Shown in pieces: positions 3,457-35,806 of a stretch of DNA of 64,000 nucleotides (positions are counted from its first letter, which is position 1; each line of letters begins with the position of its first letter). Origin of the DNA: Ruminococcus sp. (GTDB lineage Bacteria > Bacillota > Clostridia > Oscillospirales > Ruminococcaceae); NCBI GenBank assembly GCA_017534835.1, contig JAFXVT010000063.1, positions 1-64,000 of the forward strand, in the 5' to 3' direction. The position numbers and the translations under genes were made by a program. The notes below the pieces were generated by a model that worked only from the letters and a program-made list of their open reading frames with translations, had not been told where the DNA came from and did no database searches.

Positions 3457-3494
3457 CGAATCCGCAATCAAAAAATTAGAAGGATATGATTTGT

Positions 3495-3839
3495 ATGAAA
3501 AAGATTTTAGCAATAAGCTCCGTTTTTTTAATGATGACCTGCGTTCTCACGGGCTGCGGAGCCGACAAGGACAACAGCCGTAACGACGGCTCATACTACG
3601 AAGATCACGACTATGACAGGTCCGACGGCGACTCCGCAAAGGACCACGCCCACGATGCCGTTGACGGCGCTAAGAACGCCGGAAAAGACATCGTTGACGG
3701 TGCCGGAGATGCCGCAAATGACATCATCGACGGCGCCGGCGATGCCGCAAGCGACGTCATCGACGGTCTCGACGGCAGCACAAGCAGCAGAGAGCGCCTT
3801 ACGACCTCCCACACAACAAAAGCCACGACCGCCCGCTAA
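3495..3839 (+). CDS. Small repeat-containing lipoprotein
   Basis: The protein is about 114 residues. It begins MKKILAISSVFLMMTCVLTGCG, a lipoprotein signal peptide with lipobox LTGC, so the mature protein starts at a lipidated Cys outside the membrane. After an acidic Tyr/Asp region come three or more imperfect 11-residue repeats of the type DGAGDAANDIID, which are Ala/Gly/Asp rich and likely an extended or amphipathic helix. The tail is Ser/Thr rich. An in-frame ATG at 3486 lies only 2 nt after AGAAGGA, so the ATG at 3495 is preferred. The upstream region carries DnaA-box-like motifs. No family was recognised and no function is proposed. Confidence 0.65.
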   Translation: MKKILAISSVFLMMTCVLTGCGADKDNSRNDGSYYEDHDYDRSDGDSAKDHAHDAVDGAKNAGKDIVDGAGDAANDIIDGAGDAASDVIDGLDGSTSSRERLTTSHTTKATTAR

Positions 3840-3851
3840 CTGACGCATAAT

Positions 3852-4135
3852 ACAACCGCGCCTGTATCGGGGACTTTTCGGGCATTTATTGAGGGAAACC
3901 CTTTTGAAAAAGGGTTCTCCCTCAAACTCCCTTCCTAAAACTTTTAACTCCGTTTTTCCCCTCCTATGGGGTCACGCTGACAGATTCAATGTTCTGTCTT
4001 TATTTGCTGACGTGACCCCATAGGAGGGGAAAAACAAAGCTGGAAGTCTTTGGAAAGGGGTCTGGGGAAGAACCTTTCTTCAGAAAGGTTTGCCCCAGTA
4101 GATACCCGAAGAGTCCCCGATACAGGCGCGGTTGT
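3852..4135. repeat. Nested palindromic repeat element, copy 1
   Basis: A 284-bp palindromic element fills the space between two convergent genes. Outer arms (3852-3882 and 4105-4135) are inverted repeats of about 31 bp with about two mismatches. Inside lie a side hairpin at 3891-3923, a perfect 25-bp stem (3952-3976 with 4011-4035) capped by a 34-nt loop, and a second side hairpin at 4062-4098. The 224-bp core 3884-4107 recurs at 34228-34451 with no differences seen outside the loop. The right arm ends in GTTGTTTTTA, so the outer stem could act as a terminator. No ORF of note is inside. Confidence 0.9.
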
Positions 4136-4137
4136 TT

Positions 4138-5391
4138 TTATGAGCAAAGCTCGGATATTGCTTCTGCCATAAGCTCGGCATTTTTCAGCAGGTCGCCGAC
4201 TGTGATGAATTCGTCGGGGCTGTGCATATGATAATCGGTACCGGGAAATTCTGCTCCGAAGGCGACTCCGCCCTCTATCCCGTGGACGTACGTTCCGCCG
4301 CCGATGGCGATACACCGCCCTTTTTCGCCGGTAACTCGCTCATATACGCGAAGCAGAGCCTGCACGAACCCGGAATCTCCGTCCGTGCAATGCGGCTCAA
4401 CACCGTCGCAGCTGTCTATGCTGAATCCGGCTTTTTCAAGCGCTGAACAGATAATTCCGCTGATCTCAGCCTTTTTCCGGTCGATCGGGAAGCGGATGTC
4501 GATACCTCCGCTGAGCTTTCCGCCGGCGCTGTTGAGCATTGAAAGAACGCAAGTCATCTTCCCGGATACAGGGTCAGAAAAACCGAGTCCGCAGCTTTTT
4601 CCGTCGGTCTCACCGTGTGGGAAAAGCTTTGCAAGACCTGACAGCAGAGCATCAGTATTTCCCTGTATTTCAAGAAATTTCGTTATAGCATTCTCACCCT
4701 TTTCCGGAGTCGAGGCGTGCGCGGACCTGCCGATATATTCTGTCTCTCCTGCTCTACATACAGCCGGAACAGCGTTTATGACCGTGCCCGCACATATCGG
4801 TATACCGCTGTATTCTGCGGAAAAATAAACTCTCAGCATACCCTTTTCCACGTTTATCACGGGATATTCGCCGTCGGGAGTGAACACCATCGGCGGCAGC
4901 TCACGCTTGCTTCGGTAATATTCAAGGTCGGCAGAGCCGTTTTCCTCGTTTGTGCCAAAAATGAGACGTACTCCCTTTTTCAGCGGAATACCGAGCTCCT
5001 TCACGGCTCTCATAGCGAAAAGCGCTGCAACTGCCGGACCTTTATCGTCGATAGCTCCGCGTCCGACGAGCTTCTCGCCATCGACCGTAAGCGTGAACGG
5101 GTCTGAGCTCCAGCCGCTTCCGGCAGGAACAACGTCGAGGTGCGAAAGTATCGCAAGTGCAGGCTCTTTCTCGTCAAGATCGGCTGAGCCGGCGTAGTTT
5201 TCAACATTATCCACAGAAAAACCGTATTCATTGCATTTTTCAAGCATAATACCAAGAGCGCGTGCCGGCTCAGTTCCGAACGGACATCCCTCTGACGCCT
5301 CGCCCTGAACGCTCGGTACGGCAACGAGCTCCGCAAGAAGCCCGATCATCTCGTCCTTATGCGCATAAATATATTCTTTTATCTCAGACAT
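4138..5391 (-). CDS. M20 family metallopeptidase, PepV/Sapep-like dipeptidase
   Basis: This 417-residue cytoplasmic enzyme is expected to cleave dipeptides or short peptides using two metal ions, normally zinc or manganese. The M20 signatures are present in order: HLDVVP with the first metal His and catalytic Asp, RGAIDDKGP with the bridging Asp, NEENGSAD with the catalytic and metal Glu residues, a TPDGEYP segment typical of PepV, and a C-terminal YHMHSPDEF with the last metal His. Length suits PepV-like enzymes, which are usually 440-470 residues. The ATG is preceded by GGAGG. It converges on the 3495 lipoprotein gene across palindromic repeat copy 1. The exact substrate is not readable. 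Confidence 0.88.
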   Translation of the reverse strand: MSEIKEYIYAHKDEMIGLLAELVAVPSVQGEASEGCPFGTEPARALGIMLEKCNEYGFSVDNVENYAGSADLDEKEPALAILSHLDVVPAGSGWSSDPFTLTVDGEKLVGRGAIDDKGPAVAALFAMRAVKELGIPLKKGVRLIFGTNEENGSADLEYYRSKRELPPMVFTPDGEYPVINVEKGMLRVYFSAEYSGIPICAGTVINAVPAVCRAGETEYIGRSAHASTPEKGENAITKFLEIQGNTDALLSGLAKLFPHGETDGKSCGLGFSDPVSGKMTCVLSMLNSAGGKLSGGIDIRFPIDRKKAEISGIICSALEKAGFSIDSCDGVEPHCTDGDSGFVQALLRVYERVTGEKGRCIAIGGGTYVHGIEGGVAFGAEFPGTDYHMHSPDEFITVGDLLKNAELMAEAISELCS

Positions 5392-32888: not shown

Positions 32889-34181
32889 ATGATCGACATT
32901 AAGCTTATCAGAACAAATCCCGAGCTCGTCAAGGAGAATATCAAGAAGAAATTCCAGGACGAAAAGCTTGAACTCGTTGACAAGGTTGTCGAGCTCGACA
33001 AGCAGTACAGGGAAACAAAGGTGGAGTGCGACAGCCTTCGCAATCAGCGCAAGGTAAAGAGCAAGGAGATCGGCGGTCTTATGGCTAAGGGTCAGAAGGA
33101 CGAGGCTGAAAAGGTAAAGGCTGAGGTATCTGAGCTCGGTGCAAAGCTCGAAGAAATGGAAGCTCTCGAGGTAAAGCTCGAAGGCGATATCCGTCAGATA
33201 ATGCTCGTTATCCCGAACATCATCGACGAGAGCGTACCGATAGGCAAGGACGACAGCGAGAATGTTGAAGTAGAAAAGTTCGGCGAGCCTGCTGTTCCTG
33301 ATTTTGAGATACCCTATCACGTTGACATTATGGAGAGGGTAAACGGTATCGACCTCGACAGCGCTCGCAAGACGAGCGGCAACGGTTTCTATTACCTCTG
33401 CGGTGATATTGCTCAGCTTCAGTCATGTATCCTCTCTTATGCGAGAGACTTTATGATAGACAAGGGCTTCACATATTACATTCCTCCGTTTATGATAAGA
33501 AGCGACGTCGTTACCGGCGTTATGAGCTTCGCTGAAATGGAAGGTATGATGTACAAGATAGAAGGCGAGGATCTCTACCTCATCGGTACATCCGAGCATT
33601 CTATGATAGGTAAGTTCATCGATACTATCATTCCCGAGGACGAGCTCCCGAAGACTCTCACAAGCTATTCGCCCTGCTTCCGCAAGGAAGTCGGAGCTCA
33701 CGGTATCGAGGAGCGCGGAGTTTATCGTATCCACCAGTTCGAGAAGCAGGAAATGATAGTTGTCTGCAAGCCCGAAGAGAGCATGGATTGGTTCCATAAG
33801 CTCTACAGCTATACTGTTGAGTTCTTCCGTACACTTGATATTCCCGTCCGCACACTTGAGTGCTGCTCGGGTGACCTCGCTGACCTCAAAGTGAAGAGCC
33901 TTGATGTTGAGGCATGGTCGCCGAGACAGAAGAAGTATTTCGAGGTCGGCAGCTGCTCGAACCTCGGTGACGCTCAGGCTCGCAGACTCGGTATCAGAGT
34001 CAAGGGCAGCGACGGAAATAAGTATTTCGCTCATACCCTTAATAATACAGTCGTTGCTCCTCCGAGAATGCTCATCGCATTCCTCGAAAACAACCTCAAC
34101 GAGGACGGCAGTATCCGTATTCCTGTGGCTCTCCAGCCCTATATGCGTAAGGACATCATCAAAGTCCCCGAAAAGAAGTAA
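32889..34181 (+). CDS. serS: Seryl-tRNA synthetase
   Basis: SerS charges tRNA-Ser. The 430-residue class II synthetase has the N-terminal antiparallel coiled-coil arm (about residues 25-105, charged Lys/Glu), motif 2 in PCFRKEVGAHG, TCC-type ECCSGDLADLKVKSLDVEAWSP, and motif 3 in NNTVVAPPRMLIAFLENN. AAAGGAG precedes the ATG. It appears to be the last gene of the parA-parB unit; no T-box leader was seen. Palindromic repeat copy 2 begins right behind the stop. Confidence 0.97.
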   Translation: MIDIKLIRTNPELVKENIKKKFQDEKLELVDKVVELDKQYRETKVECDSLRNQRKVKSKEIGGLMAKGQKDEAEKVKAEVSELGAKLEEMEALEVKLEGDIRQIMLVIPNIIDESVPIGKDDSENVEVEKFGEPAVPDFEIPYHVDIMERVNGIDLDSARKTSGNGFYYLCGDIAQLQSCILSYARDFMIDKGFTYYIPPFMIRSDVVTGVMSFAEMEGMMYKIEGEDLYLIGTSEHSMIGKFIDTIIPEDELPKTLTSYSPCFRKEVGAHGIEERGVYRIHQFEKQEMIVVCKPEESMDWFHKLYSYTVEFFRTLDIPVRTLECCSGDLADLKVKSLDVEAWSPRQKKYFEVGSCSNLGDAQARRLGIRVKGSDGNKYFAHTLNNTVVAPPRMLIAFLENNLNEDGSIRIPVALQPYMRKDIIKVPEKK

Positions 34182-34196
34182 TAACACCAGCAACAC

Positions 34197-34478
34197 GACC
34201 GCCGGTTTTTTCCGAAGTATTACGAGTATTTATTGAGGGAAACCCTTTTGAAAAAGGGTTCTCCCTCAAACTCCCTTCCTAAAACTTTTAACTCCGTTTT
34301 TCCCCTCCTATGGGGTCACGTTAGCAAGTTAAGCCAAGACAGCAATTCTGTCAGCGTGACCCCATAGGAGGGGAAAAACAAAGCTGGAAGTCTTTGGAAA
34401 GGGGTCTGGGGAAGAACCTTTCTTCAGAAAGGTTTGCCCCAGTAGATACCCACAATGTTTCGGAAAAAACCGGCGGTC
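34197..34478. repeat. Nested palindromic repeat element, copy 2
   Basis: The core 34228-34451 (224 bp) matches the copy at 3884-4107 in length, side hairpins and perfect 25-bp central stem (34296-34320 with 34355-34379). Its outer arms are different: a perfect 20-bp inverted repeat (34197-34216 with 34459-34478), with weaker pairing outward to about 34182 and 34493. The 34-nt apical loop 34321-34354 resembles the reverse complement of the loop in copy 1. The gap 34182-34648 otherwise holds only a terminator near its right end. Confidence 0.9.
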
Positions 34479-34648: not shown

Positions 34649-35806
34649 TCACTTCATAAGCTCATCAGCCATTGCTTCGAGCTGAGCGATGTTGTCTGCG
34701 CTGAGTGAAGACTTGACAGTAACAGTAGTATCGAGCCATGTGATGTTCTTGGACTTCTCAAATTTAGCCTTGATAACTCTTGCGGCAGTCGGAGCCCATG
34801 AACCGTTCTCGATGATACCGATAGTGCGGTTCTGATAATTTCTCTCGATGAGCCAGTCAATGTACTGGTTCATAAAGGGGAATATCTCTGCGTTGTATGT
34901 AGTTGTTGCGAGCACGAGCTTTCCATAGCGGAAGCCGTCCTCAACTGACTCTGCCATATCCTCACGTGCAAGGTCTGCGATAGCTACTTTCGGGCAGCCC
35001 TTCTCGAGAAGCTTTTCGCGGAGGAGCTCAGCTGCCTTCTTTGTGTTTCCGTAAACGGAGGTGTAAGCGATGAACACGCCCTCGGACTCAACTCCGTAGC
35101 TTGACCATGTGTTGTAGAGGTCGAGGTGATACTGCAAATTCTCGGTGAGGACAGGTCCGTGAAGGGGACAGATAGTGTTTATCTCAAGTGAAGCAGCCTT
35201 TTTGAGAAGTCCCTGTACCTGAACGCCGTACTTGCCGACGATGCCGAAGTAATAGCGTCGAGCCTCGCAAGCCCAGTCCTCTTCAACGTCAAGAGCTCCG
35301 AACTTGCCGAAAGCGTCTGCGGAGAAGAAGACCTTGTCGGTCTTGTCGTAGGTCATCATTACCTCGGGCCAGTGAACCATAGGAGCAAGAATGAATGTGA
35401 GCTCGTGAGCACCGAGCGAGAGTGTGTCGCCCTCCTTGACAGTGAGAGCGTTTTTTATTTCGACCTCGGGATAGAAAGCGGTGATGAAAGCGAAGGTCTT
35501 AGCGTTTCCGACAACAGTTACATCGGGGTATTCGCTGAGGAAGCTTCCGATGTTGGCTGAGTGGTCGGGCTCAACGTGCTGAACGATGAGATAGTCGGGC
35601 TTTCTTCCGCCGAGAGCTTCTTTGAGATTGCTGAGCCACTGGTCTGTGAAGTTTTTGTCGACTGTATCGAGAACTGCTATCTTTTCATCAGCTATCATAT
35701 AAGAGTTGTAAGCCATACCATTAGGCACGTCATACTGTCCCTCGAAGAGGTCGATCTCGTGGTCGTTGACTCCAATGTAGAAAATGTCTTTTGTAACGTT
35801 GTTCAT
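34649..35806 (-). CDS. Flavodiiron protein (FprA type)
   Basis: Flavodiiron proteins reduce oxygen (or NO) to protect anaerobes. The 385-residue protein has an N-terminal metallo-beta-lactamase-like domain with the diiron motif VQHVEPDHSANI (H-x-E-x-D-H), MVHWPEVMMTYD and CPLHGPVL, and a C-terminal flavodoxin domain with the FMN phosphate loop AYTSVYGNTKKAAE. No rubredoxin domain is attached. An SD lies upstream of the ATG. The SH3-domain lipoprotein gene is 23 nt upstream, so the two may share a transcript. This supports a strictly anaerobic host. Confidence 0.94.
   Translation of the reverse strand: MNNVTKDIFYIGVNDHEIDLFEGQYDVPNGMAYNSYMIADEKIAVLDTVDKNFTDQWLSNLKEALGGRKPDYLIVQHVEPDHSANIGSFLSEYPDVTVVGNAKTFAFITAFYPEVEIKNALTVKEGDTLSLGAHELTFILAPMVHWPEVMMTYDKTDKVFFSADAFGKFGALDVEEDWACEARRYYFGIVGKYGVQVQGLLKKAASLEINTICPLHGPVLTENLQYHLDLYNTWSSYGVESEGVFIAYTSVYGNTKKAAELLREKLLEKGCPKVAIADLAREDMAESVEDGFRYGKLVLATTTYNAEIFPFMNQYIDWLIERNYQNRTIGIIENGSWAPTAARVIKAKFEKSKNITWLDTTVTVKSSLSADNIAQLEAMADELMK

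Follow-up and report, generated by a model that had tools for sequence, protein, structure and literature searches.

Two core copies between convergent genes

The window analysed here, a stretch of 64,000 nucleotides from a contig of a Ruminococcus draft genome (2.56 Mb, G000), contains two copies of a folded, repeated core. A search of the genome located the core at 3882-4105 and, with 90% identity, at 34228-34449. The first copy (L001, 3852-4135) lies between the convergent open reading frames 3486-3839 (+) and 4138-5391 (−) and the second (L008, 34197-34478) between 32889-34181 (+) and 34649-35806 (−), which are likewise convergent. Both are bracketed by self-complementary arms (31 bp with one mismatch in copy 1 and a perfect 20 bp in copy 2), and the arms of one copy are unrelated in sequence to those of the other. 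The recurrence of the core between convergent genes and the pairing of arms that differ between the loci had been noticed in the first-pass annotation of the window, and both observations were borne out. The features below were read from the sequence and, for the central stem, from the fold as well.

3852..3882, + strand: left outer arm of copy 1, GC-rich, complementary to 4105-4135
3855-3857: ACC in the left arm of copy 1, about where the terminal inverted repeat of other copies begins
3883..3884, no strand: CA; L002, L008 and L009 have TA at this inner position
3889..3925, + strand: L hairpin TTGAGGG...CCCTCAA, the first part of the L module (3889-3944), whose stretches of about 60 bp are 97-100% identical in other genomes of the genus
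3952..3976, + strand: left half of the central 25-bp stem
3977..4010, + strand: central loop, present in both orientations among the copies of G000 (L001 compared with L011)
4011..4035, + strand: right half of the central stem
4062..4098, + strand: R hairpin, related to the L hairpin in inverted form but diverged from it (the two strands of the element match each other with 72% identity)
4103..4104, no strand: TA at the right inner boundary of copy 1
4105..4135, + strand: right outer arm of copy 1, with T-rich sequence after it as far as 4140
34197..34216, + strand: left perfect 20-bp arm of copy 2, paired with 34459-34478
34227..34228, no strand: TA at the left inner boundary of copy 2
34229..34446, + strand: element of copy 2 between the two inner TA dinucleotides
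34447..34448, no strand: TA at the right inner boundary of copy 2
34459..34478, + strand: right perfect 20-bp arm of copy 2

Two further copies, L002 and L009, resemble those of the window, the cores of L002, L009 and L008 being 96, 91 and 90% identical to that of L001. The complementary arms of L001, L002 and L009 stand directly outside the core boundary, and in L008 about ten partly paired bases separate the boundary from the perfect arms. The dinucleotides next to the core are TA on both sides in L002, L008 and L009 and CA and TA in L001. The usual inverted-repeat tips of the family are not recognisable in the two window copies, whose arms are copy specific; ACCGC, however, begins the arms of L001, L003 and L008, about where the usual repeat of other copies begins. 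At the corresponding junctions in relatives, we found unrelated hairpins without the element (L063, and by eye L073 and L074), and in two other genomes a copy is located downstream of serS (L096 and L094).

The folds of the window copies lie far beyond chance (z = −21.2 and −16.0). Their minimum-energy RNA fold is one long hairpin with spaced mismatches and not the four-way structure that had been proposed for the core, although the L hairpin does form in other copies: the L module folds back on itself in 49 of 64 and pairs with R in 15 of 64. No Rfam family of structured RNAs matched the window at its gathering score; at a relaxed E-value, there were 17 matches in 9 loci, all below the gathering scores and mostly to microRNA hairpin models. 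Two reduced copies (L361 and L385) consist of one fused hairpin with complementary arms.

Anatomy, distribution, and arms of the family

In a copy, the L module (about 20 nt in addition to the hairpin TTGAGGG...CCCTCAA) is followed by a central stem, whose loop varies, and then by an R module. Stretches of L or R of about 60 bp are near-identical between genomes of the genus, whereas the centre differs, and in other genera they are found at identities of up to 98% and down to about 80%. In the usual form, a terminal inverted repeat of about 35 nt, starting with ACC, lies outside L and R, and the element 5'-ACC...GGT-3' measures 271-277 bp with its tips (four copies measured).

The core had been taken for a two-copy repeat, which proved wrong once it was searched, as the annotation had advised, against the full genome and its relatives. 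G000 holds at least 68 matches (40 of 45 candidates were scored, and the number is therefore a lower bound) and 21 places with a match of at least 90 bp, many of which lie at contig ends and several of which are halves of one copy split there. The element occurs in at least 64 of 100 sampled genomes of the genus, with at most 8 candidates scored per genome, and, in a family sample with 2 candidates scored per genome and counts that are again lower bounds, in at least 34 of 297 genomes and at least 16 of 126 genera. A pattern scan of named genomes gave at least 112 stretches; among the 80 listed, most came from Ruminococcus, many of them from R. flavefaciens, and some from Oscillospiraceae MAGs. 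In sum, the element is a dispersed, non-coding palindrome that is common in a group of gut bacteria. Plasmid and phage records gave no match. Two contigs of a viral collection match the L pattern, one of them with a full copy between open reading frames (L354, 3300-3507), which is a possible route between species.

Complementary arms are frequent in the family. A copy's own arms scored above the 95th percentile of mispaired flanks in 85 of 99 non-redundant copies and above the 99th percentile in 59 of 99, so that the expectation of complementary arms in every copy held for most of them and not for all. For the inner 37 nt, we compared the similarity between the left and right arms of the same copy with that between arms of different copies within six genome sets. 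In G062 (20 copies), G101 (22 copies), and FD-1 (9 copies), the values were 14.4, 14.5, and 13.7 for own arms versus 15.2, 16.3, and 14.4 across copies; here, the inner 37 nt are common to the family and constitute ordinary terminal inverted repeats. In G000 (7 copies), by contrast, own arms scored 18.9 versus 7.0 across copies and 8.2 for left with left, a difference driven by L001, L002, L008, and L009, and the own arms were also the better match in RGIG8564 (6 copies; 16.2 versus 9.5) and SIG539 (6 copies; 14.2 versus 10.7). The copy-specific arms first described for the window are thus real in these four copies, but they are not a property of the copies in G062, G101, and FD-1. Arms are layered, with the stem of a pre-existing hairpin outside and the inverted repeats of the element inside, and the two layers together explain most of the arm complementarity.

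TA flanks, dyad centres, and empty sites

The figures for TA describe copies with recognisable tips, since a tip filter kept 87 of the 151 copies with flanks. TA stands outside ACC in 81 of these 87 copies, outside GGT in 79, and on both sides in 78. When the flanks were joined, a stem score of at least 8 was reached by 59 of the 87 copies versus 1.3% of 7482 mispaired flanks and 0.4% of 4000 random TA sites; under looser scoring, the threshold was also reached by 247 of 1500 mispaired draws and 41 of 1500 random TA sites. A stem score of at least 7 was reached by 64 of the 78 copies that have both TA dinucleotides; in 55 of these 64, the distance to the stem is the same on the left as on the right, give or take 1, and the calculated empty loop comprises 2-6 nt in 53. 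A T tract to the right of the stem, as expected of a terminator, is present in 30 of the 64, an A tract to the left in 21, and either of them in 37 (at a threshold of our own choosing).

Empty orthologous sites, whose comparison the first-pass annotation had recommended, were examined in G062 and G101; the window loci yielded none that aligned. The two genomes are 98% identical at one locus and 89-96% identical around four shared copies; 40 of 79 and 40 of 95 candidates were scored, and twenty regions were fetched from each. From 32 flank pieces searched, 5 were without an ortholog and 27 could be compared, of which 18 lack the L or R hairpin (empty sites) and 9 contain it, one of these only in part; the presence of the element thus differs between related genomes. 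Eleven of the 18 empty sites align on both sides, and a hairpin was already there in all 11. At seven of them (L270, L283, L286, L288, L289, L294, and L295), the junction is exact and shows TA with a surrounding hairpin in every case, the TA of L286 being off centre within a large loop. The other four (L282, L287, L290, and L274, the last with 79% identity on one side) have unaligned bases at the junction; all four have the hairpin and one (L290) has TA. TA is therefore present at 8 of the 11 junctions, and TA on both sides of filled copies corresponds to the target duplication of a MITE. The remaining seven empty sites are unaligned on the far side; judged by eye and fold, a hairpin lies near the junction in four (L271, L272, L273, and L296), and L278, L280, and L285 have no convincing one. 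Wherever it could be checked, the flanks match because the hairpin was there first. Of the two explanations offered at first pass, entry into the loops of existing terminator hairpins is supported by all 11 two-sided sites and by the TA near the dyad centre, whereas an inverted duplication of one flank by the mobile element is refuted at these 11 sites.

Our data therefore make it likely that the element is a non-coding, MITE-like mobile palindrome that enters existing hairpins at a TA of the loop, as a rule one at the dyad centre. The target would mostly resemble an intrinsic terminator, and insertion at the loop TA would leave one TA on each side; the two arms of the hairpin would stay in register and, for that reason, look like part of the element. 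The enzyme presumably acts in trans and chooses hairpin sites, rather than selection removing the other insertions. The window copies may have lost the usual inverted-repeat tips, or may never have had them, which would bring the arms directly against the core. Targeted insertion would make terminators safe harbours for a mobile element, would mean that a structure-reading enzyme awaits discovery in common gut bacteria, and would illustrate a stepwise route to nested palindromes. Matched arms around a repeat need not have been made by that repeat.

It is imaginable, though we advance it tentatively and as somewhat less than an even chance, that the enzyme reads structure and not sequence, needing a TA placed centrally in a hairpin or cruciform. 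Each insertion would bring in a further palindrome, and with it a new centre open to another round of entry; nested palindromes would build up in this way like Russian dolls, with a terminator outermost, a second palindrome within it, and the core innermost. The window copies would be a core form inserted at TA in palindromes, and the junctions of L002 (GGTACG-TA[..]TA-CGTACC) and L009 (CACG-TA[..]TA-CGTG) are palindromic. Stand-alone arm palindromes were sought as the outer doll; the sole near full-length match, L384, retains TATTGAG of the core and hence reads as a deletion remnant.

Alternative origins, related elements, and rearranged copies

Other origins of the arms have to be weighed against targeted insertion. 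The arms of L001, L002, L008, and L009 match within a copy and differ between copies, as they would if the element made its own arms by copying one flank in inverted form to the other side during insertion; with the hairpin already present at every two-sided empty site, such a mechanism is extremely improbable. Random insertion, followed by selection that keeps mainly the copies in hairpin loops because they are least harmful there, is unlikely. It would agree with the intergenic location of both window copies and with the observation that the hairpin arms can still pair around a folded insert (in 61 of 64 filled copies, the minimum-energy fold includes the paired outer stem), but other intergenic TA sites should be equally harmless, and yet the symmetry lies within one base of the dyad centre in 55 of 64 copies. 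Furthermore, some sites are filled in both genomes with different variants (L246/L275 and L248/L276), as if the hairpin had been entered twice. For the window copies themselves, it may also be, with a probability that we put clearly below one half, that the arms are the element's own inverted repeats, which diverged while palindrome correction (template switching), or selection for a functional terminator, preserved their complementarity. The position of ACCGC in L001, L003, and L008 is consistent with this, as are L194, which by eye resembles a diverged repeat altered on both arms, and the better match of own arms in RGIG8564 and SIG539. However, the arms would have to change far faster than the core, and with cores 90-96% identical to that of L001 next to unrelated arms in G000, rapid evolution of the arms alone is hard to credit; in G062, G101, and FD-1, moreover, own arms match no better than those of other copies. 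The window copies may represent either a core-only form inserted into palindromes or diverged, co-evolving repeats.

The search for a mobilising enzyme covered the three transposase families PF13358, PF01609, and PF01797 and found none. TA on both sides, terminal inverted repeats, and the non-coding nature of the element would fit a MITE of the IS630/Tc1-mariner type like RUP, a derivation that we consider rather doubtful: G000, G062, G101, and G037 are not among the 20 of 125 genus genomes in which PF13358 is found, the element occurs in 4 of 16 sampled genus genomes with PF13358 and in 60 of 84 without it, and none of 15 IS630 loci fetched carried the element's inverted repeats, tips, or modules. 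IS630 elements prefer TA within CTAG. A past or rare involvement of IS630 may still have occurred. Against a MITE of a PF01609 (DDE_Tnp_1) transposon, this transposase was present in none of four element-rich genomes. A single-strand HUH enzyme of the Y1 type (IS200/IS605-like) would account for the preference for hairpin loops if it inserted the element where such loops are exposed on one strand. Conserved hairpins lie near both ends, and PF01797 has matches in 41 of 125 genus genomes, with 17 matches in G062. Since copies also exist in G000, G098, G008, and G047, where PF01797 has no match, the ends are inverted repeats, and no modules or tips of the element were present in 20 Y1 loci, such an enzyme is quite improbable. 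More improbable still is a serine recombinase with a TA crossover dinucleotide, whose dimer, binding across the centre, would favour palindromic targets. The paired TA and the central dyad position suit a two-base crossover, but the stem sequences of the targets are unrelated. Two serine-recombinase fragments occur in L376 (G000:C15:27300-33900), where an R and an L hairpin, with complementary arms, enclose about 5.6 kb; this stretch, which also holds genes for a sigma-70-like and a solute-binding-like protein, looks more like a second element inserted into a copy. A long autonomous version between L and R was rejected, as in 244 L modules every R that was found lay no more than 120 bp away. 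For 57 of the 244, contig ends included, R was not found. Sixteen such modules were read: in 13, R contains a second palindrome, L109 carries another insert, and L142 and L177 have no R.

The element is ordinary in kind, a TA-flanked bacterial MITE, and unusual in its target. Its usual form is short and non-coding and has terminal inverted repeats (ACC...GGT), tips that the four window-like copies L001, L002, L008, and L009 do not show. A REPIN is a doublet of REP sequences that forms a hairpin. The present element shares with REPINs, named in PMC3189936, two inverted hairpin modules around a variable centre, but its ends are TA flanked with inverted repeats, and G000 has no match to PF01797 (RAYT/Y1). 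According to PMC2229807, RUP, ERIC, and Correia/NEMIS are bacterial MITEs with TA termini and, like the present element, small, non-coding, strongly folded, and numerous, with target duplication at the TA ends; the present element is longer, takes a dyad-centre position in hairpins, has two hairpin modules that are near-identical between genera, and has no partner transposase that we could find. YPAL of Yersinia resembles it in having targets that span or adjoin dyad symmetry, likewise established by comparing filled and empty sites, but the same review gives duplications of 3 to 26 bp and no TA termini. SPRITE of pneumococcus is tied to terminator structure and the 3' ends of convergent genes; according to PMC3049150, it is itself terminator-like, whereas the present element splits a pre-existing hairpin. 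Full-text searches of one open-access library brought up no description of the present element.

Orientation could be assessed at 12 sites filled in both G062 and G101 and, by our reading, was the same at 5 and opposite at 7. The element sequences were comparable at 8 of the 12, and three pairs were mutual best matches (L053/L218, L240/L229, and L254/L260). L240 and L229 are mutual best matches although inverted, which points to inversion in place; the other five pairs are not, which fits independent insertion or conversion. Either orientation is found both for the whole element and for its central loop, in some cases at orthologous sites (L251/L279; for the loop, L001 and L011), and this suggests inversion at each nested level.

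The second palindrome (GTGACTCCCCACAGTGTGGGGAGATGTC...) inside the R hairpin is present in many copies of several genomes (L006, L010, L014, and L017 after position 1690, among others). A further recurrent junction, GCYCACG....TAACGAA, is connected either with the L hairpin at its base or with the adjacent module in L356, L357, L358, L365, L366, L197, L014, L019, and L015; perhaps it represents the ends of another repeated element landing in copies. In L377, ABC-transporter genes lie beyond this junction.
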